The translations under genes and the position numbers were made by a program. The notes under the pieces were generated by a model, which saw only the letters and a list, made by a program, of their open reading frames with translations, was not told the DNA's origin and made no database searches. DNA of 64,000 nucleotides from Undaria pinnatifida (lineage: Eukaryota > Sar > Phaeophyceae > Laminariales > Alariaceae): assembly GCA_012845835.1 (NCBI GenBank), contig JABAKD010000003.1, forward strand, positions 3,158,212 through 3,222,211, given 5' to 3'. Shown here piece by piece: positions 6,675 through 63,456 of this stretch (positions are counted from its first letter, which is position 1; each line of letters begins with the position of its first letter).

Positions 6675-6754
6675 GGTCAAGTGGCCGAGCGGTCTAAGGC
6701 GCCAGTTTAAGGCACTGTTTTTCATTAGCGGGAGTTCGAATCTCACGTTAACCG
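6675..6754 (+). pseudogene. tRNA-Leu(AAG)-like pseudogene
   Basis: Same 80-nt framework as 4956-5035 with more damage. The outer anticodon-stem pair is lost (C-T), one T-stem pair is broken (GGGAG against CTCAC), and the acceptor stem has mismatches at positions 4 and 7 (GGTCAAG against GTTAACC). The TTAAGGC anticodon loop and the A box remain. The upstream ATCGGTTCCATGAATT is shared with the first copy, so both arose by duplication of flanking DNA as well as the tRNA. Confidence 0.75.
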
Positions 6755-6999
6755 TGTACGATGTTTTTTCCGCCTTACCGACTTTTTTTGTACATTCAAC
6801 AAAGAAGTAAAATTAAAACGACACCTCGCTTAAGTCAGCTGTGAAAACGATCGTTTCGTATAAACTCGGCCTAATTTTAAGCTGCTCTCAGTATACGCAC
6901 GTGCATCAGCCCGAGCGGGCGATGCAGCGTGCCATTAAGTGCTGCTGTTATGAAAAACGTCAACGACCATTGTTCACGGAACAATAGATGGAAGCAACT

Positions 7000-8435
7000 G
7001 CAAGCCGAGCCCCAACCCAGCAGCAACCCCAGCCCCAACCCCAGCCCCAACCCCAGCCCCAACCCCAGCCCCAGTCCAAACCCCAAGACCAGCCCCATGC
7101 CCAGTCCCTGTCCCAGTCCCAGCGCAACCCACCGTCTCATTCATTGCTCAGCCCCAGTCCCAGTTCCAGTCCCAGTCCCAGCCCCAGCCCAAGCCCCAAC
7201 GCCAACCCTAGTCCCAACTTGGACCCTAGCCCTAATCCCCGCCCCAGCCCTGATCCAAGTCCCAGTGCCAGCTCCAACCCCAGCCCCGATCCAGGCCTCA
7301 GCCCCAACCCCAGCTCCAGCCTTAGCCCCGATTCAAACCTCAGCCCCAACTCCATCTCTAGTGCCAGTCCCAGCTTAAGCCCACACCCGAACCCCACCCC
7401 TAGCCTCACCCCTATATTGGCCCCAGCCGAAGCCTAAGCCCCAGCCCCAGCGGTAGTCCCTTCCCAAGCCCCAATCCTGATCTAAATCTCAGCGGCAGTT
7501 CCAGCTCCAGCCCGATTCAAGCCTCAGCCTCAACCCCAGCACCAGTCCAAGCCCCAGCTCAACCGCCGGCCCAACCCCCAACCCCATTCCTAGCTTTGGA
7601 TTTTCCCAAGCCCCAACCGGAGCCCCAACCCCAACCCCAACCTCAGCCTCAGCCGCAGCCCAAGCCCCAGCCCCAACTCCAGCCCCAGCCCTCTCTCCCA
7701 TTGCCCCGATCCCAGTCCCAGCTTCAGCCCCAGCCCCAGTATCCCCCCCAACTCCAGCTCCAATCACAACGTCACCCACTTCCCAACCACAGCTCATCCC
7801 CAATCCCTTGCCGCAGAATTCGCCTCGATCCCAGGGCAAGTCCCAGACCTCCCTCCGACATAAAGCCCAGCCCTAGGCCCAGCTCCAACCCCAGTCCCAG
7901 CCCCAGTTTCAACCTTACACCAAGTCCAACTCTCAATCCGAACTCCGGCCTCACTCTCAGCCTCAACCGGAGCCCCAGCCCCAGCCCCGGCCCAGCCCGG
8001 CCCCAGCCCCGCCCTCGATCCAAGGCTCAGCCTCAGGCCCAGTCCCAGCCCGAGCCGCCGCCGCCGAAAAAAAAAGCCGCAATCCCAAGCACAGTCCCAG
8101 CCAACGCTTAAGCCCAACTTCGGCGTAAGACCAAGCCTAAGACCAATCCCCAGACCCAACTCCGGACCCAGCCTAAATCCAAGCACCAGTCCCACCACCA
8201 ATCCTGCCTCCTACCCAAGCCTCAACCCCGGCCGCTTCCCCGTTACCGAACCCCTGCCCAGACACCAACGGCAAACCTAGCTCCAGCCTAGACCCAGCCC
8301 CAGCTCAAGCTTCAATTGCCAGCCTCCATCCTAGCCCTAGGTCCAGCTCTAGACCCAGCCCCAGCCCCAGCTCCATCCCCAGCCCCATCCCCAGCCCCAA
8401 CCGCTAGCCCCAGCCCCAAGCCCAGGCTCAGTGCT
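7000..8435 (+). repeat. CCCCAGC minisatellite, 1.4 kb
   Basis: A long irregular array of CCCCAGC, CCCAGT and CCCAAC words, interrupted only by single-base changes, ends near 8435. It has the same composition and position relative to a tRNA-Leu-like copy as 5285-5885. Long open frames exist in several frames on both strands only because stop codons are rare in this composition. Confidence 0.9.
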
Positions 8436-17371: not shown

Positions 17372-17646
17372 TAGGGCTTTTTCACGGGTCACGCATGACC
17401 CGACCCGCGGATCATATCAGAGGAGGTTATCAAAATCTCACAGGTAGAGTGGGGTCGGGGCAGGAGGTGTTTGGAACATCACTGGACGGGTCGGGTCGGG
17501 TCGGGTCGGGTCGGGTCGGGTCGGGTCGGGTCGGGTCGGGTCGGGTCGGGTCGGGTCGGGTCGGGTCGGGTCGGGTCAGGAGGTGTCGAAATCTCGCGGG
17601 TCGGGACGGGCATACCCTGACTCGACCTGACCCGAGAAAAAACCTG
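17372..17646. mobile_element. CAGGG-ended MITE with (GGGTC)18 array, copy 2
   Basis: The left end TAGGGCTTTTTCACGGGTC and right end GACCCGAGAAAAAACCTG are inverted. A perfect run of about 18 GGGTC units occupies 17489-17578. It is flanked by AGGAGGTGT(C/T) and AAATCTCGCGGGTCGGG blocks that all copies carry. The open frame through it is only a pentamer translation. Confidence 0.8.
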
Positions 17647-17949: not shown

Positions 17950-19512
17950 CGCGTGAATCGTCAGCGTGAGTGAGTGGACAATTTTGCGTGTTGTACGCGG
18001 CGGTGGTAGTTAATTCACCGAGACAGGGCTGGGAATTCATGTTCCCGGCAGGCCGCGGCATGTCGCGGCAGTGCCCGTGGAGCGCCGCGGCTTGCCAGAG
18101 ACATGTCCGCGGCTACCGGCGAAAAAGTCAAACTATGTACAACCGTGCGCCTCGGAAACCCGATTTGCGCGTTGACCCAGCGTCATGGGGGCGTGAAGAG
18201 GGGTCAGAAGGGCGACAGTCCGCCGGTGAAAAAAGTCGGGGGCGGTGGCTGGCACACACACCCACCTACTTCCTCCAGCCCCCACACTGCACATGTTGCC
18301 GAAGAGAACTTCTCAACGTGTGTGCCTATGGCTCACCTGTATTGGCCATCGTTGTTGGCGATGCTATTTTCGTCCCCATCCCATCACCGCTAGGGAACAG
18401 AAAAAAAGAACAGCCATATCTCATCATCAGCTATAGCTCCCGCATGACGGCTGCGAAAATTCGCGCGCCGATGCCTCCTTTTACCCTCCTTGCCTCACCC
18501 GCTCGCTGTTCCTCTGCACTGGTCATCGTTGATGGTGATGAGGATTCGCTACTGTTGTAGTTGTACGTGTGACACCATCAAGTGGAGATGGTCCTTTCCT
18601 TTCGATCCAGCTAAGCTCGAAGCGTCACCAGCTCGCGCACAGGTGGGCTGCGAAGCCACACCCGACACGGGCGTTGTTGCCCCCTGCATGCACCTTGTGC
18701 CTTCTTATGCTTTCAGGCTGCGTGCTCACCTGTTTAGACTATTATTGGTCACCATTGGTGGTGGTGATGTTGACTTCGCCCGGAACCTAACGGGTGCCTA
18801 TGATACAAGGCCGAGATGAGCTTCCGAAACAGCTCACTCGGCTCGAAGCAACGAAGCTCGAACGACGCGCGCACACACAGGCGGAGAGCGGAAGCCAAAC
18901 TCCCAGCAGCGTTCAGGAAATCTAGTCGTAATATTGCGCCTCGCGAGCTACCATGTACAGTCTACAGCAGTAGACTAGTGCGCCACGGTTGGATGGACCT
19001 CATGAGGAAAGGCGCAGCCAAGGCGCAGCCGTGGCGCAGCTCAACTACCTACGAGGTCTCTTATCTATCTATGCAGACCCCTGCACCCCTATCCAATTGC
19101 CGTGAAGAAAAAAACGACGCAGCGACGCGGCCGTGTCCAAGCCCGGTACTGCAGCTAAGCTGTGTGCGTACGGTATCCGGCTCCCGGCTCGCAGATTGTA
19201 TAACGGTTTGTTTCCCCGCCGCCTAACTGCGTTTTTTGCCGAATCCGCGTTTGATATGCGTAACGACAAAACAACCCGTTTTTTTTTGTGCTTTTCATAT
19301 AGACCTATATAATCGCATGAACCGCTGCTACTCGTACTGCTGTAATGTAATAATGGCCTCGAACCCGTTATAGAGCAGCTCTGCACCAACCAGAGTATCA
19401 GCAGCAGCAGATTCGCATACCGCAGCAACAACTACCTATTACAACGTGATGGTACTGTCTGTTGTATTGCTACTAAAGGGTATAGATTCATAATATTTCC
19501 ATTGCCTGTCGT
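17950..19512. other. No supported gene; weak tandem repeat
   Basis: A block like GGCTCACCTGTATTGGCCATCGTTGTTGGCGATG near 18329 recurs in divergent form near 18495-18542 and 18722-18768, so a degenerate roughly 200-bp repeat covers about 18300-18790. A 196-codon open frame across 17970-18560 has no recognisable features. At 19370-19435 a CTGCACCAACCAG/CAGCAGCAGATTCGCATACC block is shared with 6050-6120. Confidence 0.45.
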
Positions 19513-19592
19513 GGTCAAGTGGCCGAGCGGTCTAAGGCGCTAGTTTAAGGCACTAGTTTTCATTAGCGTGAGTTCGAATCTCACCTTGATCA
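19513..19592 (+). tRNA. tRNA-Leu (AAG)
   Basis: The cloverleaf folds fully. The acceptor GGTCAAG pairs with CTTGATC (one G-T), and the discriminator is A. The D arm carries the A box TGGCCGAGCGG. The anticodon stem CTAGT/ACTAG encloses the loop TTAAGGC with anticodon AAG. A long variable arm (TTTTCATTAGC) follows, as in class II tRNAs. The T stem GTGAG/CTCAC encloses TTCGAAT (B box). Length is 80 nt with no intron and no encoded CCA. It decodes CUU leucine codons after A34 is modified to inosine. An identical gene lies 200 bp downstream. Confidence 0.95.
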
Positions 19593-19596
19593 TTCC

Positions 19597-19603: not shown

Positions 19604-19791
19604 ATTCTAATCTTGATGCACATTGGTCGAAACGTTGTTGTCCGTGCCGATGTGCTCCGAGAGAGACGAACGAGCTCCGTGGTCACAAACTACGAGGCAG
19701 AGAGAGATAAAACATATTTGAAATACAGGAACTTCAAGATGATTAATGTCAACCGCAACGAAGACAATGAACACGCGGGGATGAATGTCAT

Positions 19792-19871
19792 GGTCAAGTG
19801 GCCGAGCGGTCTAAGGCGCTAGTTTAAGGCACTAGTTTTCATTAGCGTGAGTTCGAATCTCACCTTGATCA
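19792..19871 (+). tRNA. tRNA-Leu (AAG), second copy
   Basis: It is identical over all 80 nt to the gene at 19513-19592, with the same stems, anticodon AAG and class II variable arm. Flanking identity is limited to CATGGTCAAG-like upstream and ATTCCT downstream, so the two genes are an old tandem duplication kept identical, or were homogenised. Confidence 0.95.
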
Positions 19872-19877
19872 TTCCTG

Positions 19878-22104: not shown

Positions 22105-25100
22105 GTGAGTTTCATTTCTTCGTGTTGTTGGAATTTGATGTTTGCTGTCAGCTACTATACCATGATGATACTACTACTGATGATGGTGTTGAGAGTTTGT
22201 GCCCGTTGTCAGTGTGTTCAGCGCCGTGCGACATAAGTAAGACACCAGATGTCAACACCCTGTATTTTCGGTAGTGCCGCGTTGAGTGTTGGCTGAATGT
22301 GCTGCAAGTTGTGCGCAATAGACTACCAGTATGTGGTTTTGGGTGTTGGTGAACTCAAGCGAATCCTGTTTCCAATACAGTAGGGGTCCCGGTTTAGCGG
22401 TTCCCTGTTTAGCGGTTGGACCCGATTTAGCGGTTCAAAATTCTGCTGACACCGCGGTACCCCGCTTTAGCGGTTGTACAACCGCTAAATCGGATTGTTA
22501 CCGGTTTAGCGGTTGTTTGGGGTCATTTCGGCTGGAATAGCGGTTGTGTACATACCCCGGGGAACGACGGGTCACTTTCTGCTGCAAACCTCGCCGGCAC
22601 TCACACACACTTTCACAGCAGTATACAAACGGCCTACCCACTGCGGTTCGCAGCTACCCGTTCAGAACCATGCCGTGCGCGGCGTTAGAATTCTGCAAGT
22701 TTCCGCACATGACACCGGGTGCAACCGATGCACTTAGTGTCGGCGTCCGACTGGCGATAGAGGGGGGCGGCGTGCAAGACAAGGAGATGTGCGAGATACT
22801 GACCCATCTCGACATCACCCCTGGCAAGCCTGCCCACCCGGCAGCCATCGAAGCGGTTCGGGAGTGGGCAGAGTTGGAGGAGCAGGAAGAGATCGCCGAA
22901 GCTCTGATGCAAGATGCGAAGGACTCGATTCTTAACGTGGTGAACCACACCTGCGGCAAGGACAAAGGTCCTTCTGAAGACGAGCTAGACGAGGGGTTCG
23001 AGAGTCCGGAAGAAGTTTCCTTGATGGCGCCACCGCCGTACTCGGAAATCTCGTCGCTTTTTGGGCAGCTAGAGCAGTACGCAGAGTCGTGTGGTATATC
23101 AGAGGCAGGGTGCTATCTTCGCAAGGCGAAGATGTCCTTTCTCGCAGCGCATGCCTCTAGGCCAGCAAGGCAGACGGATATCCGCGCCATGTTTTCTAAG
23201 ACGTAGTCGAGTGTACAGCAGTACTCTCCGAGGTTCCTGTAGAGTACGAAGTGTGAAGTACGAGTACACCACACTTTTTTTGTTTTGTGTTTCCTTAGAG
23301 TGTTTCAAGTCCAAACTCCGGGGCACACGCTGCGGTTTGTAGCAAGACGAGCAGGAGCGTACAGCAGTAGAAGGGGGGTTCCAGCAGGTGTTATGTGCAC
23401 GTACAGTATGTTACCCGGATGCGGGTACACACAGGTGGTGGTTCTCTTCGCGATGCTTGATACGTTTCACCTAAGTTTTAATGTCTATCCCGCACTACCG
23501 CTGCTGTATTCGTACTACTGGTCCCGCGGCAATCATGCTGTACTGCTATATTCAGCAGCCACATATGACGCTATCTAGTTTTGATCGCAATGGCAACGCT
23601 ACTTTCATTCCCAGTATATGGGCTTTTACCCGGTTTAGCGGTTGTAAACCGCTAAATTGGGACCCAGAATAGCGGTTATTAACCGCTAAACCGGTTTACC
23701 GGGCGGTCCCGGTTTAGCGGTTATTTCGCCCTTTGGCACTAGGGACCGCTAAACCGGGACCCCTACTGTAATGATGCACATTGAAATTTACATTGTTTGA
23801 CCTTGTGTGCCTGTCTGCAACGTCTGCTGTAGCATGTGTGTGCTACACCAGCGTGGTCGAACTACCACACGGTGTGGAAGCTGTGCTTGGGGACGCGTAG
23901 CCTGAACAAACTCAAGTTCGCCTTGGTGGTCACGGAGGGCAGTCCCGTCGTCGGGGTAAGTGTTATAAGGCTTAGTTTGGGTAAGCTATTGGTTAACCTT
24001 TTGCAAGTGGTCAAACGGACTAATACCCCACTATATACCTTAACAAATGGCGTCGTCGACAGACCATGGGTTTTTGGGTCGTGGGTTCGATCCCCACATC
24101 CACCATAATAAACTTTTTCAGATTTTCCCATGGCGAACTTGAAAAATACTCTCCCCGGTATACCCAGGAAATGAAACGGCTTGGATATATTGACAGGTCC
24201 GCCCGTATATCCGGCCGAGCTGCTATCCCGCCGTTTCAGGGGGGGAGAGTGTTATAAGGCTTAGTTTGGGTAAGCTATTGGTTAACCTTTTGCAAGTGGT
24301 CAAACGGACTAATACCTCACTAAGTCCTTAACATAAGCATGTTGTACTAGTTGTCTACGCAGTTGTGTGCTGTGATTTCTTTTTCATGCGTACAAACACA
24401 CTTTTGCATGTACGAGTACGTGTACGGGGCAGTCCCGTCATCGGGGTATAAGCGGGAATTGTACAAGTACTCAGGTCTACGAGTAGACCTATGCAGTGAC
24501 GCTGTGTGATGCGATTTCTTTTTCATACGTACGGCCAAACACACTTCATGTATGTACGACTACGAGTACGCGGCAGTCCCGTCATCGGGGTAAGCGGGGG
24601 TTGGACAAGTGGTCCATGCAGTGACGCTTTGTGCTGTGATATAAACACACGTTTTGGATGTGCGACTACGACTACGTGGTATCTATACATACATGTAAGA
24701 CGCAATGAAAACTTGAAAGTCTCATCACGGGGGTCAGCCAGGGTTGTAAAAATGGTCCATGCAGTGATAAATAACACAGCAGCATGATAACTCAGCACCA
24801 GTCGCAGTACACACTGGAGGTTGATATATAGCAGTAAACAGAAGCTGAAGTTAACCTGGGTGATGCTGGAGAGCAGTCCCGTGATTGGGGTTAGCGAGTT
24901 GTTCATGTAGTGACGCGGTGTACTACTACTGTTACTCATTTTTCATACAACCACATGAACTCTTTGTATTAACGAGTACAAGTAGGGTGCGCAACCTCTT
25001 CAGGAATCGCAGTACACGTCGGTCGTAATAGTGTTGATAGCAGCAGTAATGGAGTAGTACCGAACAATATATACAGCAGGTACTGTCTCTTACCCTTCGT

Positions 25101-32479: not shown

Positions 32480-32612
32480 GCCCGGCGATGTTTCGGCGAC
32501 CTCGTGGTGATACGTGCTCGCCGGAAGGGGACGTTTCAAGCTGATCCCCCCTCGTGGTGATACGTGCGCCCCAGCAGCGGACGTTTTCAGCTGATCCCCT
32601 TGGCCGCAAGCT
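32480..32612. repeat. Tandem duplication around the Deltex-like stop codon
   Basis: CCTCGTGGTGATACGTGC, then GGACGTTTCAAGCTGATCCCC is repeated as CCTCGTGGTGATACGTGC, then GGACGTTTTCAGCTGATCCCC. The second copy contains the stop codon of the last Deltex-like exon, so the unit of about 60 bp covers the end of the coding sequence and the adjacent 3' untranslated DNA. Confidence 0.7.
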
Positions 32613-32623
32613 CCTCCTTCACC
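32587..32623 (-). CDS. Deltex-like terminal exon
   Basis: Acceptor GACGCAG|G. Its first base completes the Arg codon begun in the previous exon, then VKEELAAKGIS and TGA. The first Glu of the family's V..EL ending (a known pocket residue, E608 in DTX2 as I recall) is conserved. Confidence 0.9.
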
Positions 32624-35600
32624 CTGCGTCATTGTCCGAACACGGCCATGGGGTTGGTTGAAGTGTAAAAAACAGCAGTACATCAGCATTAACATCATCA
32701 CCACCATCATCACCACTACCACCATGAACATCAACATAAAAAATCAACATAAAAATCAACATTGTCAGCAGCACTATCAGCAGCAACAGCAGCATGGTCA
32801 AAATGCCGCAATTGCGGCATAAGAGGCACACAAACTATGTCGAACTACAGCATTACAGCTACATGGCGAGGTCACTTGAACAGCGGTAAGAAATTGGTCT
32901 GGGCTGCGGTAATTGCGTAACGAACCCTGTCCCTTATTCACTAAAACCACATTTTTCTAAAAATATCCTTGCATTTACTCCCGCGGGCAGTCCGCTCGCT
33001 GTCACGTTGCCATATTTGGACTCTGGCAATTACCTGTTAACTACCCGTAACCGGCTCAAAGTTTGTGTTTTTGCGCTAATTGGCGTTAAGCACAAGCTAT
33101 TTTGGCACCCATCCGACGTCTCAACTGTACACAGCTTTATCCACCTAGCACAAGGGCTAAACGGCGCTTACCTGGTGAAGTAGTGCCTATCGGGATAACC
33201 GAAGTTAGCGCTACCCCCAGAGGTGGCGGTTTTGTGGTGGATCCCGTTCCATATCACGCTGTTGGAGATACCTGGCTCAAAAAAAGCGAAAACACCAATT
33301 TGACTAGACGTGGGAGGCGTGCTTGCGAAGAGAATTGGCAACGTTTTCTTCCAACGGCACGTATCCGTTTTGGCTGGCTGGACAACTACTGTAGTTGGAA
33401 ATAAAGCGGGACGTTGTATGTGTGCTACCACCGTGGTATGCTAATTTGGAATGGAAGGTAATAACATTTTCCAGGTATCTGTAAATCATTGGAAGTAAAC
33501 CCTTTTTCGAAGTATCTGTACAACCTCACCAACAAACGAAACGTGGAAGGCGTGCTTGCGATCGGGGTTGGTGGAGTGATGAGTTTTCAACAGGATTGGT
33601 GGAATGATGAGCTTCAATCAAAGTTCCCATCACACAGCTCAAGCGTCTTTTTCATTGTTATGCAAAATAAGCAAAGCGAAGACACGCATTTGAAATACCT
33701 AGCCGATTGAAGTAAACGCACGCAGCTAGCAAAAAAAAAAGATTTTCGATGAACCCCCATCTCACAGCCAAGGTGTCTTATTTCGTTCTTATACAAAAAA
33801 AACGAAGCGAACGCGCCATTTCAGAAATACACCTGGCGAATCGAAACATCACACGCAGCTTCCTAATACGAGTTTCGACGATTTTTTCTCTCACGGCTAC
33901 CATGTCTTTTTCGTTTGTATCCAAACAACAAAACGAAGCGAAGACTCACAATTGAGAAAATATATCTGGCCGATCGAAGTATCACACGCAGCTTGCAAAA
34001 AATATTATTTTCGACGACATTCCCGGATCTCACAGCTAAGGCCAACTATTATGGGCTATTTTTAAGCGATTATTTCTGGCGAATATTCTTGTAGTTTCGA
34101 GGTTCCAGAAATAACTGCGTGACAAATAAGGGGCGTCCATTATGGCTCCTGATTTTTGGAAAGTGGTTGTATTTTGAATTGGTAGGTCTTTTTTTCCCGT
34201 TTGTCTTCATTCATTGTTGAATATCTGGCACGTACACTGTCGCCGGCGACGTTAGGTCACCACCGCCTCTGCTGCTGTCGCTGCTGCGGTAGGCTGCTGT
34301 GGTGCTGCTGTGGTGCTGCTGTGGTGCTGCTGTGGCGGTTTAGATGGTGGTGCTGCTGTTGTCGCGTCTGTGTGAGACGAAGCTCTCTCTCGCACACAAC
34401 AAGCCCGGTATGCTGTAGTAGGTGTGTTTGTGATTCTTTGCCGTGGGTGATGAGTGACGTTTATAGCAGACAGATATCATACCAGGTACAGAGTAGGCAG
34501 TGGTGACAGGTGATACTTGGTACCAGGTAGTATCCAAAAGCCAAATAATCTCAGTTCTGACAGGATGGAAGAGCTGTTATTTCTGGGCTCAGAAATCACA
34601 TGATGTGCTGATTTCTGGCCTCGATTATTTCTGAACCTAGAAATAACGATGATTTCTGGTCCCACAATGGACGTTTTTCATTTTTGGCTTCGGAGATCCC
34701 TGTTAAAGAGAGAAACTATCGCTCTTTTTTTTCCATTAATAGTACTTGTAGGTCTAAGGTGTACTTTTCGTTTTTATACAAAACAAAGAGTAAGCGTGGA
34801 CACGAATTTGACGATAAAATTTTCGCTGGCCGATCGAAGTATCACACGCAGCTTCCAAACATGAGTTTTGACGTTTTTCTATCTCGCAGCTAAGGTTGCT
34901 TTTTTCATTTGTACGAAACAGAGCTGAGGTGAAGACAGGCATCGGAGGTACTTGGCCGATCGAAAAGAGAAACATGCCTGGCCGATCGCAGTATCACACG
35001 CAGCTTCCAAATATGAGTTCCGACGTTTTTTCCTCTGTTATCACAGCTAAGGTGTTATTTTCATTTTGCTAAAAAAAAGAAGGCGAAACAAAGATACGCA
35101 TTTGAGAAATAACTTGGCCGATCCTAGTATCACACACAGCTTGCAAACTTCAGTTTCAACGATTATCGACCCGGCAACCGCGTTAGAAAAAAGGAAAATA
35201 GAAAAAAAAGCGAAGACACGAGTAGATTTATGAACAGGCGAGCATAAAAAATCCCAAGGCACGTGTCTAGGGTTCAGCGAGCAAACGAGCATCCAAACGC
35301 AAAGGAGGGCACGTGCTGCATGCAAAGATGAGCCTCGACAGAATTATCGATCTCTCAAGAGTCGAGGCGTCTTTCTAACATAACCAAAATAAAAGCGAAG
35401 ATGCCTTTAGATTTTGTCAATTAATAGAAGACGAGCATATCACGTCGTATCATAGCGATCTGCGCAAGCTTACAGCGTCACAAAATTTCCACACCTGGGA
35501 CAGATCACGATCTAGATCATCCACACATCGGACATATCACGATCTAGATCATCCACACCACGGACATATCACGATCTAGATCATCCACAACTCGGACAGA

Positions 35601-38600
35601 TGACAATCTAGATCATCCACACCATGGACAGATGACGATCTAGATCGTCCACACATCGGACAGATGAACGATCTAGATCATCCACACATCTGACAGATGA
35701 CATCTAGATCATCCACACCTTGGACAGATCATGATCTAGACAATCTACAACAGATCCTATAGCTGCCGCTATGAGAAGTTCTGCAGGATCTGTGAATGTA
35801 GAGTACAGATCAAACCTAGTAAACAGGTGCCAGATCATGGAGATCGTACGGCGGGTAGCATGAGCTACACCATACAGATCTTCCCTGAAAATATCTACAT
35901 CACCACGCGGGGATAGATCGTCTGACCGAGGTGTCAACGTTACTCAAAGCACGAGTAAAAAAGATGAGAAAAAAAATAAGAACATTTAAGAAACATATTA
36001 AAAAAGTAAGAAAAAAATAAGACAGAACAGGAAAAAAAAGAAGAAACACGTCAAGGGAATGATTACGCCGCCTGGAGGGCCGCAAGCGACGTAACCTGTC
36101 GTTAGTTTTACGCGGAAGGATATAGGGTTGACGTTCTTTGATCTTGTAAGAGTGCCCGACATCTGGTATTTATCATCACTGTTGGGGGGCTCGCGCAGAT
36201 AGGTAGGCCCATGCTAAAAAACAAATTGAGAACACGAACAAAACAAAAAAAAAACATTGAAAAACATATCAACAACACATTCAGGAACACGTTAAAAAGC
36301 AAATCATGAACAAAAAACGACACTAACACAAGAACCAAATTAAAAAACAGGCACAGTAAAAAAGAAAGAAAAAAAGACGAAAAATACGAAACGAATTGAG
36401 GAGCAAAACTAAGAGAAAAAAAAAACTCAAAAGAAACTATCGACAGGACAGAAAAAAAAAAGAAAAAAAAACAACCGGCGAAGGATTGCCCGCCACTCCA
36501 CACACCCGTCGTGACGGAAGTGCCGACGGTGAACGTCATCTTCTGCTCGAAACACGCGCAAAGCAGCCCCAGCACTTCCCTCCCTTCGGGGGTGTTCTGC
36601 GATACCAAAACGCAAGGGGGTACAGCAGAGAGCGCGTGTGACCAATTAGGACATGAACTACGAAAGCTTAAGCGTTCTTTTCTAAGGTTGTACTAACGAG
36701 TTTTAGACCAACCTGATGGAAGCAAAATATCTTTGATTCATTATTGTACTATAGATACTGCTAGCCTGGGCCCAAATAGAAGCCTCATGTACGTTGGCGT
36801 ATACTTAGGAAACATCGCTTATGTTTAGACCCAGACTGGTTGGCGACAATACGCAGGGCGGTGATCGGGGGGGGGGGGGGGCAACGCTACCCCCGAGCAG
36901 AACCTCTACCCTAACCCTAACGGGTATAGGGTCACCCGTGCTTGGATGCTGTGGCTAAGTCATCACACGCTAGAGGCGCAGCAGAAGTTTCTGAGATTCT
37001 GAACATGAGGTGTCAAATGTCTCACCCGAAACACGACTTCGAAGCCATTCGTTCGCACCACATGTCGGCGGCTGATGATATACTTTTTTTCACGAAAAAA
37101 AGAACGGTTGTCATATTATACCCTATTCAGATCTAAACACTGCAATTAGAACAGCAGTACATTCTATCTCACACTAGTTTCAGCAAATTGTTCCCAGACG
37201 CTTGCTACGACAGAGGCATAGGGTATACCTTTTTTTGGCTGAAAAATGTTCCGAATGACGGGGCTCCTTGACGCCTGTACAACTGGAAACCCTTTTTGAG
37301 GACATATTTACTTGAATTTAGTATAGGGAGGGATTTGGTTGGCTCTAAACCTATTAATACAATCGTCGGAATAACATATTGTTTCGCAAAATATATGTTT
37401 TTTATATACCTATGCCGTGGGACTACTCATCGAGTTGGACTTCTTCCATTATCCTAACAAGCAGTTTTTGCCTGAGAGGGGTGTAGAGCTCATCAGGTTA
37501 TGAGCCTCAGAAAAAAACGTCACATGAACCTATACCTATACGTAGCATGCCCCTCCATAAACATCGATGGAGTCCGAAAGGGGGCATGAACCGTCCCGCG
37601 TAGGCAAAACACAGGAGGCCAAGGCGTATGCTACGACAGAGGTAGGCATAACGTGGAGTACAAATCCAACCCCGGAAAGAGGTTCCAGATAATGCAGGTC
37701 GTACGGCTCCCGCTGGGCAACATGAGCTAGACCATACAGATATTCCATGAAACACGTAGATCATCAGGTGAGGATCGATGATCTGTCTATTTATGAAAGT
37801 TACTCAAAATGTCACGATTCACGAAAGTATATGTCACATTTTGTTCCATCACGATTCCTGTTTCTTTTTCTTTTTTGTTAGTTGGGAATGAAGCTTTATT
37901 TACCGGCAAGTATGCGACGCGGGACGTGCCGCGGTAGGCCTGGCCAGGGTTAGGGTGATGCCGGCTCTGGATGCCGCCGAGAAAGTTGTAGTTAATGACG
38001 ATCGTGCCGACCGTCTCGTATCCCGACAATGGCTTTGCGCCGGGAGCGCGCGTACTGAATGTCATCGTTCCATCGGGCTGGGTACCTAGCAGACACCGAC
38101 AAAGAGAAGGGAGCGTTTGAGCGGGATAGCGGGGTATGCTCATTGGGAGCGAGGAGGATAAAAAAAGACAGCGGTGGTTGAGTTGGGAGGCAGGAGGATG
38201 AAAAAAAAGCGCCATCTACTATACGAGTACTAGTGGCGGTGTTGCATTTGGCGGGGAGGGGGGGGGCACGAAAGGGGGAGCATGCGGATTGGAGGGTTGA
38301 TTCCTGGAAACAACACACACGGAAAGGAGGAGGAGATTTTCCGAGGGGCCTAGCGACACCGACACAAAGGGTGCGGAGGGGTACATACACCATCGAGTAC
38401 GGGGGGCCCTTGGGACTACAGACTCTCAATTACGACATTGGAGCGAGGGCCACGGAAAACTTTCCGCAGAAAATTCTCCGCAGCCAGCCGGGGAGGGCGC
38501 ACATGCTCGAGCACGAGAGGCCCGTCGGATGACTTGTCTCCTAACCGCGACAAGAGAGAGAGGCGCGGGAAAAATCGCGTAATATATATCACACCCTGGA

Positions 38601-41600
38601 CAATGTACAATAGTCCAATAGTCTATTAATAGTTTCCTATTGCAATTGACTGTCTGTTGTGGTCCCTAGTTCCAATTAATTGAAACCCATCGAGCTCTGT
38701 TGCACCGACAATTTCAATTAATAGACGCCCACCAGGTCCTGTTGTTTAGACAAATTCAATTAACACACGCCAATATATATCAACGGTTGAAGCAGCTGCT
38801 ATTAATACTTACCCCCGGAACTCGATTGCTGAACCCGTAGTCTGCTGTCATGTACTACCCCATTCTATTGTACAGGCAATAGTCTACTGCAGCATATTGG
38901 AGATGACAATTATCTACGTAGACAACTCCATTTAATAGACAACTTTGTGAATAAATTATCCAGGCACTTCCATTTAATAGACAGCTTTGTAAATCAATTA
39001 TCCAGGCAATTCTATTTAATAGACAACTTTGTAAATCAATTATCCAGGCAATTCTATTTAATAGACAACTTTGTAAATCAATTATCCAGGCAATTCCATT
39101 TAATAGACAACTTTGTAAATCAATTATCCAGGCAATTCCATTTAATAGACAACTTTATAAATCAATTATCCAGGCAATAAATCAATTATCCAGCCAATTC
39201 CATTTAATAGACAACTTCGTAAATCAATTATCCAGGCAATTCCAACTAATAGACAACACCCCAGTTCAATTGTGGCCACAATAGCCTATTATAATTAAAA
39301 ATAGGAATCGTCCACGTAATAAAAACATTCATATTATTTTTCTTGTTTTTCATATTACACGTAGTACCTTATCTTATTTTTTTTAATTCCTTTTCTTTTC
39401 TTTTCTATATATCATATACTTCGGAGTATAAGCTAATTAACAGCAGCAGTAGTTATAGAAGACTGATATGGTGTCTTGTATGTCGCCAATACATATCGTA
39501 CAATAAGGGAGCACAGAGTGGACAGTGAGAACAATTGCATCGACAGGTAGGAACATAAACCGTTAGTAGACAGCTACTCGTACTCGTAGACTAGTCTATT
39601 TTAGTCCAGGGTGTTATTTATAAACCCCATAGTCCGGGACTAGCATAACGGGTACGTATGACAGGCCGTTTCTGCTTATGCCTTGGACAATGGACATCGC
39701 AATAGCCTATTGCACCTACAATAGACCCCCCGAGAAGTCTATTAATTGGAATTACTTGGACAATTGATTCGTAACAAAGCATTGCAATTCGAAATGCAAA
39801 CGCAAGACACATTGTTGGTCCCGACTAAAATTGAATTAGAGGATTGTCAATTCACTGGAATATTCTCCCGCAACTTTTATGTGCAGGAGACTCCAATACT
39901 CTATTGCTTCTTCAATAGGATCGGGAAGTTACCCACAATAGAGTATTGCCTTTTCAGCATATCGTCCGATTACATGGAATTGGTTCGAACAATAGGTTTT
40001 TGCTTTGATATTCCAATTGAAAATTGTTTCAACAACTTGTTTCTGATCTTGCTTATTATAGGAATTGTTCTGTTGATAGGTTTCTGTCCTGCCCTTTCAA
40101 TTGTACTTGATTGAACATTTTGTTTGCGGTCTGGTCTATTAATAGAAATGGTTCGCACAATAGGTTGATGCTCTGGTTTTCCAATCGAAATTGATTCAAC
40201 GTTTGTTTCTGGTCTTGCCTATCAATAGGAATGGTTCGGGTAGGTTTCAGTCCTGACCTTCCCATTGCAGTTGTTTCAACTAATTGGTTCGTGTTTTGTC
40301 TGTTAATGGAAAAGGTTTACACAATAGGTTCATGCTGTCATCATCCAATTGAAATTGTTTAAAAAAATTGTTTCTGGTCTTGCCTGTTAATAGGAATAGG
40401 TCGGTCGATAGGTTTCTGTCCTGGCTTCTTTTCAATTGCATCGTTGTGAGACCTTTCATATATAGACATTTGTCCTGACCTTCCAAATTCAATTGTGGCC
40501 GCAATTCCGATTAATAGACAGCCCCCAACGTCAATTTGTGGGCGCAATTCTGATTAATAGACAGTAACCGAAATCATTGGAAGCTGCAATTCCGATTATT
40601 AGGCAGCAGCCCAAGTCAATTGTAGCCGCAATTCCGAGTAATAGACAACACACCCAAAATCATTTTTTGCCGCAATTCCAATTAATAGACAGCAGCCCAA
40701 ACCAATTGTGGGCCGCAATTATAATAATTAGACAGCACCCGAAATCAATTGTGACCGCAATTCCGATTAATAGACAGCACCCGAAATCAATTGTAGACGC
40801 AATTCCGATTGGTGGACAGCACCCAAAATCAATTGTAGCCGCAATTTCAAATAATTGACAGCACCCCGATCAAATGTATCCCCAATTCCAATTGATAGAC
40901 AGCAGCCCAAATCGATTGTAGCCGCGATTCCAATTAACAGACAGCACCCCAGATCAATTGCGGCCCCAATTCCAATTGACAGACAGCACCCCAAATCAAT
41001 CGTGGCCCCAATTCCAATTAACAGACATCACCCCAAATCAATTTTGGCCCCAATTCCAATTAATAGACAGCACCCCATATCACTTGTGGTCACAATACAA
41101 AGTTCCCTTCCGGGAAGTGCCTGACGGAGTGGCGCAAGAACGAAATCCAAGCATCCAACACCTGACTGCCTGTGGGCAATAATTTTATACAATAACATAT
41201 ACTCGGTGGCAGTGAACACTATCTTCTTGTCCGCAGCTCGAGAAGCAGAGTGTGGGGAGGCGCCCTCCCGGCGACGGTTCGCTCTCTCCCCGTCGTGTGT
41301 GGAGAACCGTAAAGAAGTGGTGATCCCCATCAGTACGTGTTCAGCACGAGGACTCGCACGATGAGGACTTTTTTGTACGGGCGACTCTTATTACGTATGA
41401 ATAAAATTTGAAAGTTTGCGTGGTGAAAAATAAGCGGACGGAAGGTGGATTTTCAACCGGCAAAGAAAAAAAAAACAGCAGTTGTTCCGTGCGCGGTCTT
41501 TCTATCGTGGTTGGTTTTGATGCTTTTTTTCTTTGTTTCGTGCGGGAATCAGCAACTTCAGAACAGGTACTCTTCTTGTCTTGCTGAGCCAGATATTGAA

Positions 41601-44364
41601 GCGCACGACGAGTGATCCACGCCAGGATGGACAATCATCCCCCTTCACCACACCAGCTCGTCGCAGAAAGTGCAAAATGACAATAACCATTGATACAAAA
41701 GTCTTAAATCCAAACGGCCCTAATATTTTCGTCCAGAATGGCGATGCCGCCCACAGCAGCAGCAAAATACAGGAAATCGATTACATATACGAAGCAGGCC
41801 CCGAAAAATTCAACTGGCAACAGCAGTACGGCGCAGATGGATGTGCCACACACGCACGGTGTCACCTGCTGGTGGTGCTGTGCTAGGCGGCATTTTTTTT
41901 TACGTTGTTGTGCTCTCTGCGTGTTGGCTGTGCTCATGGCTGGCTGTGTTCATGAGAGGGCAAAAAACAGACCGAAGAATGTTTCCACTGGGCCTGGTAC
42001 GCGCCCATAGGGTATATGCTACCATAAGAAAAGGTATACCCTTTATGCGCGTGCACGATGCTGGATGTTGCGGAAACCCGGGGATTTGCCTCATCCATGC
42101 CCAAGGTCAAAAAAGTTTAAAAGGCTTGCCACGCGCGACACACTGCACGGGTCGCGCCCAAACCTCCAGCAACGTCACCCCAACAGTCAAATTGTGCCCA
42201 CCCCCCCTTACATTTCGGACAAAGGTGCGAGCACGAAGAGATGTGTCCGCAAAAAAAAAAAAAATGACAACTATATTCCGCGCAGAAAACTATCTATTTT
42301 TTCGCAGAAAAATCTCACCAATCAGCGCGGCATACATGGTGGAACACGTCGGACATTTGGGCCCCATAGCTCTGAATGTCCTCAGAATGCACTCTCGGTG
42401 CATGTAATGCCCCTGGCATTTCGAAAGCAGCAGGGCAGGTTCATTCGCGCTAAACCCGTCCAGACACACTGCCGGTCGAGAGCACAGGCGGGTGGGGTGG
42501 CGAAGGGGGGCGGGCGGGGGGGCGAAGGGGGCGGGCGCGGGGGGGGGGGGGGGTACTTATTTCATATCTGGCCGTAGTCCTGTCATCATAAACCCCTCGC
42601 AAACCTATAATTCCGGGACGGGGCACGTCGAGCTTTCGCCGTCCAGGCAGACACTCGTTGCACCAAGCTCGAAGCGACGTGAGGTGTTCGGCGCGTCGCA
42701 TGAAGAGTTAGCCGTACCTTGGTAAGAACCGGTTTGTGACGCGGACTTCCTCAGCTTGTGCGTATTTGCATTCGGATGACAGCTTCGACTTAGTTTTTTT
42801 TTGTTAAAAGTGATCACTTCCAGAGACAGCGAACGGAGGGGGGGGGGGGGAAATCGCGCGCGTCTGAGCGCGCTCGACACCACCTGTTTCTCGCCTCCGC
42901 TGTCGCTGGGGAAACAATTACTCGTGAACAACTTCACGCTGGTATTGGGCCACCTTTTGGTCTCACCAGCACACGACTCATCCGCCGCGACCATGGCGGT
43001 GCGGTTCTGGGCGACTTATATTTACGTAAGTGTTACTCTGGACCCTCTTCTCATCCTCCGGCGGATGGCGGGGGAAAAAAGCGTAGCCACTTGAGAGCCC
43101 CCACTCCACTCCCGATAATGATTTTCTAAGTAATTTATCCCCAAAAAAGCGTTTCCAGATAAAAAAAGAGGCTTAAGGTCACCTCTCTTGCACGTATTAT
43201 TTTCATACATGGTGGTGTGTCGATTTAACTCTGTTGTATTCGCAAATCCAGCGCAAGCTTGCGCATCCTTCACTTCCCGCGGGCGAAACGTTCACCAGCT
43301 GTTGGCGCCCCCTCCCTTTCCCTCGGTCAGTCCCGGTTGAAAGTAAAAGAAGCTACCCCTGTCCCCTATACTAGCGCCGCCTGACCAACGAGCTGTGATA
43401 GGGGCATACACCGTTTCGGTATTTTTAAGGCGTCCTCACTTCGAAACCTCTGCACTTCATCCATAAACAGACTTATAGATTAAAGCTACAAATGTGCAAA
43501 CCGATGAACAATCAACCCCATGGCCTACGAGAAAGCATACAAAAAAAACACACACACACAAATGCAAAAAACAAAAAAACGACAACCCGACGAACTTGGG
43601 GTAAGCAGCGCCCCCGCCACTCGGAAAAAACACAACGCTAAAAAAAGGCTACCAGGCACCAGGTAAACTCTACGGTGACACGCATCTTAAACGCCTTTAC
43701 AGCCAGAAACCCGTTTTTTTGGGACAAATGACTTGGAGTTAGATTAGGGAGGGGTCTTAGGGCTCTGAAGGGGTTAAGCCCTCTCATCGTATTCCAACGA
43801 TTTTAGTTCCTGATTTTTTTAGGAGCCCGATCAACCAAATGTATTTAGGCCAAAACGAAAAAAATCCAGGGCCTTTCATGGGTCGGATCATGGGTCGCGG
43901 GCCACGGATCGGATCGGGGTGACCTGGACCGACCCGTGACATGTGGACACCTCCTGACCCGACCCGTGAGAGTTCGACACCTCCTGACCCGTCCCGGCTC
44001 GACCCGTGGCGTTTTAAAATACCTACTGACCCGACCCGCGGGCCGGGTCATGACCCGTGGAAAGCCTTGCCAAAAATGCTATCCCTATCCCCTTTCGAGA
44101 AACGCCTCTCACCAGCGCACGTCTCGTCTGCCGCGACCGTAGCGGTGCAGTTCTTGGCAGCATCCACCAGTCGTTTGAACTCCCTTTCCCTCGAACCACT
44201 GGCGCTCTGCGAACTCTGCGAAGCCTGTTGTACCGATTGTGCCGACAGTACTGCCTGAGACGGCCGCAACCGTCCTCCGCTTCCTCCTCCGCCGCCCGCC
44301 GCAGCCGCTGCCGACGCCGCCCCCATCGCCGTTGTCCCTACTGTTGCGGGGGACCCGTTGGCAC
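32587..44364 (-). CDS. Deltex-type E3 ubiquitin ligase (RING-H2 plus DTC domain), 3' part of gene
   Basis: Exons in transcript order: 44364-44113 (or the alternative 43014-42967), 42468-42319, 38085-37904, 36596-36476, 33271-33172, 32623-32587. Every junction keeps frame (phases 1, 1, 0, 1, 2). The RING reads C-AV-C-(14)-C-QG-H-YM-H-RE-C-(11)-C-PT-C. It runs directly into GTQPDGTM, HPNPGQAY, AYLPNTPEGREVL, FTVGTSVTTG, WNGIHHKT, FGYPDRHYF and VKEELAAKGIS, the full order of Deltex C-terminal motifs, then a stop. Deltex proteins are RING ubiquitin ligases whose DTC domain binds ADP-ribose/NAD and can ADP-ribosylate ubiquitin. The N-terminal exons lie beyond 44.4 kb or were not recognised, so substrate-binding domains are unknown. 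Introns are full of satellites and MITEs. The gene type is certain; completeness and expression are not. Confidence 0.93.
32624..33171 (-). other. Deltex-like last intron
   Basis: 548 bp, donor CAG|GTAAGC. It holds CAT/CAG/CAA-rich low-complexity DNA at 32675-32815 (ATCATCACCACCATCATCACC and repeated AACATCAACAT words). Confidence 0.75.
33172..33271 (-). CDS. Deltex-like DTC exon 3 (WNGIHHKT)
   Basis: Acceptor GAGCCAG|GT and donor CACCAG|GTAAGC. It encodes ISNSVIWNGIHHKT, a Gly/Ser loop and NFGYPDRHYFTR. HHKT is the strongest DTC signature and the first His is the conserved pocket histidine. Twelve residues later, where DTX1/2/4 have His and DTX3L has Tyr (from memory), this protein has Phe. 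Confidence 0.92.
33640..35190 (+). repeat. Tandem satellite, about 130-bp units
   Basis: Each unit contains GAAGCGAAGACACGCATTTGA-type, TGGCCGATCGAAGTATCACACGCAGCTT, ATGAGTTTCGACGATTTTT-type and TCTCACAGCTAAGGTGTCTTTTTC-type blocks. About seven units are present (TATCACACGCAGCTTCC or variants near 33716, 33848, 33978, 34840, 34990 and 35125). The array is split by unrelated DNA at 34045-34690. Single outlying units occur at 56875-56955 and 62730-62800. Confidence 0.85.
34045..34690. mobile_element. Insertion splitting the 130-bp satellite, possibly a TIR element
   Basis: Unrelated to the satellite. An inverted pair, GGGGCGTCCATTATGG (34130) and CCACAATGGACG (34663), lies about 530 bp apart and may mark its ends. 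Several ATTATTTCTGG/CAGAAATAA words in both orientations flank these sites. A GCTGCTGTGGTGCTGCTGTGG array is at about 34290-34340. Ends and superfamily are uncertain. Confidence 0.4.
35491..35934. mobile_element. GATC-rich MITE, copy 2, with internal tandem expansion
   Basis: The left end ACACCTGGGACAGATCACGAT is mirrored by GATCGTCTGACCGAGGTGT. The left half contains about eight tandem units of roughly 37 bp (GGACAGATCACGATCTAGATCATCCACAC). The right half matches copy 1 (GATCCTATAGCTGCC, GAGTACAGATCAAACC, GATCGTACGG, CATACAGATCTTCCC). Confidence 0.85.
35940..36475. repeat. A-rich low-complexity DNA
   Basis: Irregular AAAAAACA, GAAAAAAA and AACACGTTAAAAA words dominate. On the transcribed minus strand this is a long pyrimidine/T-rich tract just downstream of a Deltex-like donor. 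Translations are Phe-rich and not genes. Confidence 0.7.
36476..36596 (-). CDS. Deltex-like DTC exon 2 (FTVGTSVTTG)
   Basis: Acceptor TATCGCAG| and donor GCCG|GTTGTT. It encodes NTPEGREVLGLLCACFEQK, then MTFTVGTSVTTG and VWSGGQSFAG. The G.EVL.LL..CF....FTVGTSVTTG pattern matches the middle of the Deltex C-terminal domain. Confidence 0.92.
36842..36925. repeat. Poly-G run and two telomere-like repeats
   Basis: A run of 14 G ends near 36882, and CCCTAACCCTAAC occurs at 36910-36922. Two repeats are too few to call an interstitial telomere. Confidence 0.4.
37268..37357. mobile_element. TTAA-type MITE, degenerate copy
   Basis: It starts TTGACGCCTGTACAACTGG, has GTATAGGGAGGG and GGCTCTAAACC in the family order, and ends TTAA. 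The left TTAA is now TTGA. Confidence 0.55.
37640..37790. mobile_element. GATC-rich MITE, partial copy
   Basis: It carries GTCGTACGGCTCCCGCTGGGCAACATGAGCTAGACCATACAGAT and ends GATCGATGATCTGTC. The left half is missing or unrecognisable. Confidence 0.6.
37904..38085 (-). CDS. Deltex-like DTC exon 1 (QPDGTM ... HPNPG ... AYLP)
   Basis: Acceptor GTGTCTGCTAG| and donor TTGCCG|GTAAAT. It encodes TQPDGTMTFSTRAPG, an LSGYETVGTIVINYNFLGG strand-rich segment, GIQSRHHPNPGQAYRGTSR and VAYLP. This is the start of the Deltex C-terminal domain. Third-position GC is high. The first two bases complete the Gly codon left by the RING exon. Confidence 0.94.
38640..39260 (+). repeat. 42-bp satellite, block 1
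   Basis: From 38930 the unit CAATTCCATTTAATAGACAAC-TTTGTAAATCAATTATCCAGG repeats with a 42-bp period about seven times with few changes. Divergent half-units extend back to about 38640. The 14-residue protein repeat seen in one frame is a by-product of a period divisible by three. Confidence 0.9.
39261..39729. other. Unassigned spacer within satellite region
   Basis: AT-rich with CTTTTC and TACTCGTA-type words. No exon supported. Confidence 0.4.
39730..40480 (-). repeat. Diverged inverted satellite block
   Basis: TTGTTTCTGGTCTTGCCTATTAATAGGAATGGTTCG-type units recur near 39985, 40045, 40130, 40205, 40300 and 40370. Read on the minus strand they share the CAATTCC, TATTAATAGAC and AACAATT words of the flanking 42-bp satellite, so this block seems to be an inverted, older form. 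Confidence 0.6.
40481..41095 (+). repeat. 42-bp satellite, block 2
   Basis: Units CAATTCCAATTAATAGACAG-CACCCCAAATCAATTGTGGCC recur about 14 times with a 41-42 bp period from 40481 to 41095. The consensus differs from block 1 mainly in the GCACCCCAAATCAATTGTGGCC half. Confidence 0.9.
41533..41886 (+). CDS. Open frame of uncertain status inside the Deltex-like intron
   Basis: A 117-codon plus-strand frame with balanced composition (for example KMTITIDTKVLNPNGPNIF and EIDYIYEAGPEKFNWQQQ). It contains no simple repeat, unlike most long frames here. I do not recognise it and found no splice partners. It may be an exon of an overlapping gene, or chance. Confidence 0.2.
   Translation: MFRAGISNFRTGTLLVLLSQILKRTTSDPRQDGQSSPFTTPARRRKCKMTITIDTKVLNPNGPNIFVQNGDAAHSSSKIQEIDYIYEAGPEKFNWQQQYGADGCATHARCHLLVVLC
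42319..42468 (-). CDS. Deltex-like RING-H2 exon
   Basis: Acceptor CCGGCAG|TG, donor ATTG|GTGAGA, 150 bp. It starts two bases into a Val codon, then CLDGFSANEPALLLSK, CQGHYMHREC and PKCPTCSTMYAALIG. Together with the preceding exon's TCA this makes a complete zinc-binding RING-H2 (second Cys through eighth ligand). The next residues continue straight into the DTC domain, as in the Deltex family. Confidence 0.93.
42480..42800 (+). mobile_element. Dispersed element core (GCGAAGCGC family), copy 3
   Basis: A poly-G run (42540-42552) and GTACTTATTTCATATCTGGCCGTAG are followed by GGACGGGGCACGTCGAG, CGTCCAGGCAGACA, TGCACCAAGCTCGAAGCGACGTGAGGTGTTCGGC and a 3' part with GGATGACAGCTTCGACTTAG and CACTTCCAGAGACAGCG. 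The last two blocks are also in 52530-52590, so this copy extends further than copies 1 and 2. It lies 12 bp from the RING exon acceptor. Confidence 0.8.
42967..43014 (-). CDS. Alternative or duplicated short exon (ADESCA)
   Basis: 48 bp between AATATAAG| and GCTG|GTGAGA. It encodes AQNRTAMVAADESCA and ends in phase 1, as the RING exon requires. It is homologous to the last 48 bp of 44113-44364 (KNCTATVAADETCA). The DNA differs by both synonymous and replacement changes, so the duplication is not recent. It could be a mutually exclusive exon or a relic. Confidence 0.6.
43015..43686. other. Intron sequence, nothing further recognised
   Basis: Lies between the two candidate first-RING exons. 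A 75-bp stretch at 43183-43257 (minus) has GT-AG ends and encodes a CAGFANTTEL-type peptide. Its phase does not fit the RING exon as modelled, so it is not included. Confidence 0.4.
43687..43777. mobile_element. TTAA-flanked piggyBac-like MITE, copy 5 (inverted)
   Basis: 91 bp with TTAA at both ends. It starts TTAAACGCCTTTACAGCCAG and ends GGGCTCTGAAGGGGTTAA. It is the reverse orientation of copies 1 and 6, and the interior TTAGATTAGGGAGGGG matches. Confidence 0.8.
43867..44069. mobile_element. CAGGG-ended MITE with GACCC interior, copy 5
   Basis: The left end CAGGGCCTTTCATGGGTC is mirrored by GACCCGTGGAAAGCCTTG. Inside are CACCTCCTGACCCGACCCGTG units, three in tandem. It ends only 44 bp from the donor of the Deltex-like exon at 44113. 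Confidence 0.8.
44113..44364 (-). CDS. Deltex-like exon preceding the RING (ANGSP ... ADETCA)
   Basis: 252 bp between TTCATCAG| and GCTG|GTGAGA. It begins two bases into a codon, then ANGSPATVGTTAMG, a run of Ala and Gly, a Gln/Ser-rich stretch (SVQQASQSSQSASGS), REREFKRLVDAAKN and CTATVAADETCA. The final Cys is the first zinc ligand of the RING. The low-complexity part is likely a disordered linker. A truncated duplicate of its 5' part is at 45520-45584. The donor phase matches the RING exon exactly. Confidence 0.75.
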
Positions 44365-44369
44365 CTGAT

Positions 44370-44640
44370 GAACGGACGAACGAGCAATGAAAAAACGAGA
44401 ACAAACTCTTCCATCGGACTTGGTTCGTTCCGGCACGCATTTGACTGTGTTTGCGATACATGACGACAAAAAAATAACACCCTGATGGACGGATGAATGG
44501 GGGATAAAACATTTGGAACAAATTCTTCCATTCGACTGACGACAAAAAAAGAACACCCTGCTGGACGGATAAATGGGGGATAAAACATTTGGAACAAATT
44601 CTTCCATTCGACTGAAAAAAGGCCAGATCCACTCCGGCAT
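44370..44640. repeat. 76-bp tandem repeat
   Basis: ACACCCTGATGGACGGATGAATGGGGGATAAAACATTTGGAACAAATTCTTCCATTCGACTGACGACAAAAAAA-type units start near 44478 and 44554, with a partial unit before 44440. The two full units are nearly identical, so the duplication is recent. It lies just upstream of a Deltex-like exon on the transcribed strand. Confidence 0.8.
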
Positions 44641-45519
44641 GCATTTTGAATCACAAAAAAATACAAAAACATCTGGTATGCAGAATCCACGCAAAAAGTC
44701 TATTCCTGAGCACAAAAACGAACACAGAGCACGTGAGGAACACGCGTACGAGAGAGTGAGAACGGCAGCAGCGGCGGCGGGGACGGAGGTGGCGCTGGCC
44801 CAGCAAGATTACAGCAGCTCGGCCTGGCTAGGTGATCACCGCGATCGCCACCACCAGAACAGACAACAAAGCCAGTTTTGAATATTAGAAACAAGCAGGC
44901 GACACCAACAGCAGTCGCAGCACAGCAGCCGTAGCACAGCAGCATCGCGAGCAGTAGCAGTAGCAGCAGCAGTAGCAGCAGCAGCGGCGACTGCGGCGGG
45001 GATGGCAGTGGCTGAAAAAAAAGCTTCGGCGACGGCGGCGTGATATAACGGCGGTGGTTGAAAAATCAGCACTGAATACAAGAACATCACAGCAGTAGCT
45101 GCTGCAGCAGGAGCGGCACGAGCAGCAAGCACGAGGTAATCGCAGCGCGCGCCCACTCGCTAGCACCTATCCCTGAGGTCGCGCCTACGCGCCATGCTTC
45201 CCCAGCTACCCTTTGGTGCTTCCGTGCTCCCATGGTTGGCTTGTGTCTACCGCTGCCAATCACAGCGAGCGGTGTCTGTGAAGTGTGGGTTGTGTCCTTG
45301 TGCTCTGTGGGCGTTGTGCCGTCATTGCGCCTGGAGAGCGTCGGGGAAAAGATCTGTACAATGCAGAACAATGGATGGGCTGCTAGAGGTCGATTGAACT
45401 TTTGCCGCAGTTCGGTCCAAATCGTTCGCTCAGATTGGAATTTCCCGCCCGTTTTGCGTCAAATTCCTCGTTCAAAGTTCGTTCGTGGTATTTTTTAGAT
45501 CGGGTTTTGGGTTTTGCTT
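44641..45519. other. CAG/GCA-rich DNA; no exon recognised
   Basis: 44885-45150 is rich in GCAGCAGTAGCAG-type words. 45190-45400 and 45400-45500 are unassigned. On the minus strand this should hold upstream Deltex-like intron or exons, but I recognise none. Confidence 0.4.
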
Positions 45520-62895: not shown

Positions 62896-63456
62896 CAGGG
62901 CTCTTCACAGGTCATGGCCCGGCCCGCGGATCGGTTCAAGAGTTGACCAAATCTCGCGGACTGAGTCGGGGAGGTGTTCGAAATTACACGGGTCGAGTCG
63001 GATCGGATCGGGTCGGGTCGGTTCGGGTCGGGTCGGGTCGGGTCGGGTCGGGTCGGGTCGGGTCGGGTCGGGTCGGGTCGGGTCGGGTCGGGTCGGGTCG
63101 GGTCGGGTCGGGTCCGGTCGAGTCGGGTCGGGTCGGGTCGGGTCGAGTCGAGTCGGGTCGGGTCGGGTCGGGTAGGGTCGGGTCGGGTCGGGTCGGGTCG
63201 GGTCGGGTCGGGTCGGGTCGGGTCGGGTCGGGTCGGGTCGGGTCGGGTCGGGTCGGGTCGGGTCAGGTCGGGTCGGGTCGGGTCGGGTCGGGTCGGGTCG
63301 GGTCGGGTCGGGTCGGGTCGGGTCGGGTCGGGTCGGGTCGGGTCGGGTCGGGTCGGGTCGGGTCGGGTCACGAGATCTCAAATATCACGGATCGGGTCAG
63401 GTCAGACCCGACTCGACCGTATCTGCGATAAAATATCCGACCCGTGAAAAGCTCTG
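62896..63456. mobile_element. CAGGG-ended MITE with giant (GGGTC)n array, copy 6
   Basis: The left end CAGGGCTCTTCACAGGTC is mirrored by GACCCGTGAAAAGCTCTG. Between them about 77 pentamers (62985-63370) run with only a few variants (GGTTC, GAGTC, TAGGG, GGGTCC). The flanking ACCAAATCTCGCGG and GTGTTCGAAATTACACGGG blocks match other copies. It is the largest expansion of the family in the window. Confidence 0.85.

Follow-up and report, generated by a model that had tools for sequence, protein, structure and literature searches.

Does the repeat-rich brown algal DNA analysed here carry an intact gene for a Deltex-family ubiquitin ligase, and how far does such a gene extend? The question arises from a preliminary description of a 64,000-nucleotide stretch of Undaria pinnatifida DNA (this whole stretch is hereafter called the window), in which a complete Deltex ligase was proposed to be assembled from six small exons. 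We addressed it by examining the exon chain, the domains of the joined protein, the surroundings of the first exon, and the residues of the predicted active site, and by searching for relatives in other sequence records.

Exon chain and domain architecture

All six proposed exons were located at exact coordinates on the minus strand, and their sizes fell within the claimed range of 37-252 nt. Exon 1 (44364-44113, 252 nt) encodes a low-complexity Ala/Gly/Ser N-terminus with an in-frame ATG at 44326-44324, stops right after the first RING cysteine, C82, and is followed by the phase 1 donor GTGAGA. The remainder of the RING-H2 finger is encoded by exon 2 (42468-42319, 150 nt). Exon 3 (38085-37904, 182 nt) contains the start of the DTC domain with the motifs QPDGTM, HPNPG, and AYLP, exon 4 (36596-36506, 91 nt) provides the middle of the domain, including FTVGTSVTTG, and exon 5 (33271-33172, 100 nt) provides the part with WNGIHHKT and GYPD. 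The codon of the catalytic residue His236 (33239-33237) lies in exon 5, as does Phe248, which occupies the position of His594 in DTX2. Exon 6 (32623-32587) is only 37 nt long; it encodes the end of RVKEELAAKGIS, with the codon of the catalytic residue Glu262 at 32613-32611, and closes with TGA. The introns between these exons measure 1644, 4233, 1307, 3234, and 548 nt. As had been described, phases and splice signals agree along the chain: the five introns are all GT-AG, and with phases of 1, 1, 0, 1, and 2 the exons join into a single stop-free frame of 269 residues that ends at the TGA.

Base composition also distinguishes the exons from their surroundings, the GC content being 0.54-0.66 in the exons versus 0.43-0.53 in the introns. 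The third-position GC of the RING-DTC part was 0.738, compared with a GC content of 0.498 for the window. The DNA pattern corresponding to WNxIHHKT occurred once in the window and in none of 100 shuffled sequences.

We then compared the joined protein with domain profiles and solved structures. The Pfam DTC profile (PF18102), whose search had been named beforehand as a possible refutation, matched by a wide margin (E 5.3e-55, 185.6 bits, cut-off 25), and profile positions 2-133 of 133 aligned with residues 134-268 of 269, i.e., at the C-terminus. The zf-RING_2 profile of Pfam matched residues 81-125 (E 4.3e-08, 33.7 bits, cut-off 27.3), so that the RING finger stands immediately N-terminal to DTC with a short linker between them. 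The RING-H2 ligands follow one another in the order that had been reported, and all eight are present (C82, C85, C101, H104, H107, C110, C122, and C125); their spacing includes a C-x2-H element (CQGH). Among solved structures, the best relative was DTX3L (E 1.6e-43, residues 122-268), followed by matches to DTX2 (E 7.3e-37, residues 98-268) and DTX1 (E 5.4e-36, residues 98-269). The alignments with these three proteins span four of the five exon junctions and contain a few short gaps, all of them away from the junctions. Residue 83, where exons 1 and 2 meet, is spanned by the Pfam RING match mentioned above and by a match to the RING of AT5G66160 (residues 76-126).

From this evidence, we consider it very probable that an intact eukaryotic gene for a ubiquitin ligase of the Deltex family lies here, its long introns being filled with repeats. 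The exon chain would then represent the 3' part of this gene, encoding RING-DTC, and perhaps its entire coding region. The word "complete" in the preliminary description is borne out for the RING-DTC part but not for the N-terminus.

Repeats and the 5' end of the gene

The introns and flanks of the gene hold both tandem arrays and dispersed repeats, so the placement of the gene in repeat DNA was described correctly. Tandem units of 42 nt occupy 38923-39271 and 40483-41096, and units of 32 nt occupy 35488-35740. A dispersed repeat at 42580-42760 has five further matches in the window with 73-77% identity, on both strands (near 9215, 20285, 51685, 52378, and 61376). A sequence near 42655 (SVCLDGES...) was considered as a second copy of exon 2 that arose by tandem gene duplication, and it was rejected because it is part of this dispersed repeat with its five further matches.

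Several other features were observed elsewhere in the window. CGGGT pentanucleotide arrays lie at 62989-63369 (76 copies) and at 17487-17577 (18 copies), and the former lacks stop codons in several reading frames of both strands. Four tRNA-Leu(AAG)-like genes were detected at 19512-19593, 19791-19872, 4956-5036, and 6674-6755, two of which score alike (55 bits) and lie within 300 bases of each other; these loci are perhaps tRNA-derived repeats rather than genes. We also examined 10 stop-to-stop ORFs of the window, picked by eye, and none of them gave a match above the Pfam cut-off; five of the 10 were also compared with PHROGs, with no match. An ORF on the plus strand at 22541-23203 (221 residues) is of ordinary complexity, matched CMD at E 0.051, below the Pfam cut-off, and had no PHROGs family; it is possibly a lineage-specific gene. 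In the 10 ORFs and the 20 ORFs described next, no other gene was found by Pfam.

The 5' edge of exon 1 is uncertain, because position 44364 falls within 44344-44419, a diverged copy (61%) of a 76-nt repeat. Translation from the ATG at 44326, which is in frame, would yield a protein of 257 residues with an Ala/Gly/Ser-rich beginning. It is also conceivable, with a likelihood somewhat short of even, that the protein is longer and that N-terminal domains, for example WWE or DTX3L-like D domains, are encoded by exons upstream of 44364. Such a protein would be compatible with an intact gene and would differ from the reading given above in the extent of the gene only. It would be in keeping with the long N-terminal extension that Deltex ligases are reported to carry (PMC7615817), and both the frame of exon 1, which is open upstream as far as 44650, and an acceptor-like CAG ending at 44365 leave room for it. 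On the other hand, exon 1 holds its own in-frame ATG, and no Pfam family exceeded its cut-off in 20 minus-strand ORFs located at exon 1 or upstream of it. These ORFs were picked by eye and include the in-frame ORF at 44051-44650; the scan was non-exhaustive, and short exons would escape it. The weak sub-threshold Pfam matches in the 20 ORFs included FloA (4.7e-04) and DUF4529 (0.0038), neither of which is known from Deltex. In the joined protein as well as in these 20 ORFs, Pfam detected none of the N-terminal domains described for Deltex proteins.

The end of exon 1 is partly duplicated at 43012-42967 on the minus strand; this copy has the phase of exon 1, an in-frame ATG at 42994-42992, and an upstream in-frame TAA at 43018-43016. 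The similarity extends over 52 nt (43012-42961, 85% identical), so the first intron bases, including those of the donor, are part of it. Because the first RING cysteine comes from exon 1, either exon 1 or this copy is required for a complete RING, and the copy is possibly a first exon used in place of exon 1, or else a relic. In the former case, transcripts would begin with one first exon or the other: exon 1 would lead to a longer protein, and the copy, which ends at 42967 and provides an ATG itself, would lead to a minimal RING-DTC protein. The copy would join exon 2 correctly, since its first RING cysteine, its phase, and its donor are identical to those of exon 1. We nevertheless regard this arrangement as unlikely: the duplication covers just 52 nt, an in-frame stop lies immediately upstream, and the copy is perhaps a relic.

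These observations also bear on whether the locus is a recent pseudogene, in which the exons are still clean and the locus is untranscribed or has lost its 5' part. The repeats that fill the introns and flanks, the start of exon 1 in a diverged repeat copy, the nearby partial copy of its end, and a 5' end of the gene that is not established would all suit such a history. However, the 269 codons in six exons contain neither stops nor frameshifts, the splice sites of all five introns are preserved, the RING-DTC part has the high third-position GC given above, and the catalytic residues are kept. We therefore judge a pseudogene to be highly improbable and retain the reading of an intact Deltex-family gene.

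Catalytic residues and the predicted pocket

In the Deltex family, the catalytic pair was assigned to His582 and Glu608 of DTX2 (PMC7615817), and this His/Glu pair is reported to be strictly conserved across the family (PMC10810221). In our alignment, the pair is kept as His236 and Glu262. The spacing of +12 and +26 from the His is common to DTX2 (582-594-608), DTX3L (707-719-733), and the window protein (236-248-262); the DTX2 and DTX3L numbers were taken from PMC7615817 and PMC11460948, and the alignment was counted by eye.

The third residue of the pocket is Phe248 in the window protein, which is neither the His of DTX2 (His594) nor the Tyr of DTX3L (Tyr719). Because DTX2 and DTX3L themselves differ at this position (PMC11460948), we treat it as variable and not as family-defining, which is our own judgement. 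The exchange may still matter, because the Y719A mutant of DTX3L is reported to be defective on ssDNA (PMC11460948); Phe248 may weaken or alter binding in the pocket and to that extent counts against the predicted function. The linchpin residue, which follows the last CxxC of the RING, is Ser126 and not Arg. In human Deltex ligases, this residue is reported to be Lys, Gln, or Gly and not Arg (PMC7615817). The Ser126 linchpin thus fits a predicted transfer of ubiquitin to a hydroxyl and not to a lysine.

Next, we compared insertions around the pocket. DTX3 and DTX3L are described as being without the AR motif near the pocket and without the RING insertions of DTX1, 2, and 4 (PMC11460948). Two residues that precede CYLP/AYLP in DTX1 and DTX2 are missing from the window protein in the alignment, and a four-residue RING stretch of DTX1 and DTX2 is absent as well; residues 82-97 are unaligned to these two proteins, and the DTX3L chain has no RING in that region. 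Our reading is that the two missing residues correspond to the AR motif and the four missing RING residues to one of the insertions. The AR motif, so read, is absent from the window protein, which shows no gap relative to DTX3L at that point. Its absence in common with DTX3 and DTX3L would be weak evidence of common descent. Because both the two-residue and the four-residue stretches of DTX1 and DTX2 are missing, the pocket looks like that of DTX3L.

The resemblance to DTX3L extends to a DTC alignment with one three-residue gap, the His/Glu catalytic pair, the non-Arg linchpin, and the lack of a two-residue insertion before AYLP, the last of which is common also to DTX3 by description, DTX3 not being among the compared sequences. 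The window protein differs from DTX3L in having Phe at the position of Tyr719 and the C-x2-H spacing in its RING, and none of the known N-terminal domains of DTX3L was seen in it. With DTX1 and DTX2 (DTX4 was not among the sequences compared), it has in common the RING-DTC order, the catalytic pair, and the GTQP linker motif; besides lacking the two stretches described above, it differs from them in that Pfam found no WWE domain in the joined protein, nor was one found in the 20 ORFs picked in the non-exhaustive scan for upstream exons.

Judged from these sequence features, which largely bear out the functional ligase proposed in the preliminary description, the product is likely a RING-DTC ubiquitin ligase that is active and has a pocket resembling that of DTX3L, and it probably attaches ubiquitin to ADP-ribose. 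In the proposed reaction, the RING would recruit a ubiquitin-loaded E2, and the DTC pocket would hold NAD+ or ADP-ribose, either free or protein-bound. His236, with the help of Glu262, would then activate the 3' hydroxyl, and ubiquitin would be transferred onto this hydroxyl. Single-stranded nucleic acid is a further possible substrate, because the pocket is predicted to be without the two-residue insertion of DTX1 and DTX2, as in DTX3L. A more specific proposal joins several of these features: a compact Deltex, approximately the minimal RING-DTC unit made from the alternative first exon, with an open pocket of the DTX3L type and Phe in place of His or Tyr, would attach ubiquitin to ADP-ribose or to single-stranded nucleic acid in a lineage that has no Notch. 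We regard this combination as quite improbable, and the broader prediction of a RING-DTC ligase acting on ADP-ribose remains our preferred one.

Relatives and distribution of Deltex ligases

We searched for relatives of the window protein in other sequence records. By peptide pattern, no RING-DTC relative was confirmed in the six viral stretches or in the 50 stretches from genome contigs, and tblastn of RING-DTC against phage records gave no match at 1e-5. A degenerate DNA pattern for WNxIHHKT matched 34 stretches (6 viral and 28 genome), two of which encode a DTC domain; both are bacterial records of Endozoicomonas. The other 32 loci, including all six viral ones, yielded nothing at or below E 1e-3, and six of these 32 had short motif matches only (E 0.067-0.96).

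The first of the two, in Endozoicomonas cretensis (OODV01000002.1), is a minus-strand ORF at 7204-7998 of the matched stretch with a DTC domain at the protein end (Pfam, 1.3e-53). Its protein shares 48% identity with the window protein across 176 aligned columns (E 6e-44) and has the His/Glu pair together with the same Phe. We read the adjoining frames as transporter permeases, which speaks for a bacterial origin of the contig. The second, in Endozoicomonas elysicola (NZ_JOJP01000001.1), is a minus-strand ORF at 6363-6923 of the matched stretch (Pfam DTC, 2.7e-40) with 39% identity to the window protein over 142 columns (E 5e-26). Part of it coincides with an upstream ORF that is read in a different frame, so that the gene may be broken or misassembled. 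Pfam showed no RING at E 0.1 or better in three Endozoicomonas ORFs; the E. cretensis frame reaches the edge of the scanned stretch, so its N-terminus falls outside this search. Because most bacteria have no ubiquitin system, a transfer of the DTC domain from a eukaryote to Endozoicomonas is a reasonable lead, and the Endozoicomonas domains are candidates for such an event. One literature search on the two words Endozoicomonas and Deltex found no publication joining them. These DTC domains may merit more attention than the window gene itself.

As for eukaryotes, Deltex was classed as holozoan-specific in a survey from 2009 that covered 35 species, its two heterokonts both being Phytophthora (PMC2770060). 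In a 2013 study of Ectocarpus gametes, Deltex is among the listed transcripts (PMC3879662), and a 2025 paper on diatoms reports that Deltex ligases are upregulated in sexual reproduction in four species (PMC12618581). The window gene has in common with these genes a Deltex-type ligase outside animals, a likeness drawn from the published reports and not from sequence. Deltex genes are already known in and outside animals, and the locus is not new in kind. Because the Ectocarpus and diatom reports already widen the distribution of Deltex, the locus extends this distribution and does not change it. What it adds is a clean Deltex ligase gene model, in which the catalytic Glu is encoded by the final exon, which at 37 nt may be missed by gene finders.
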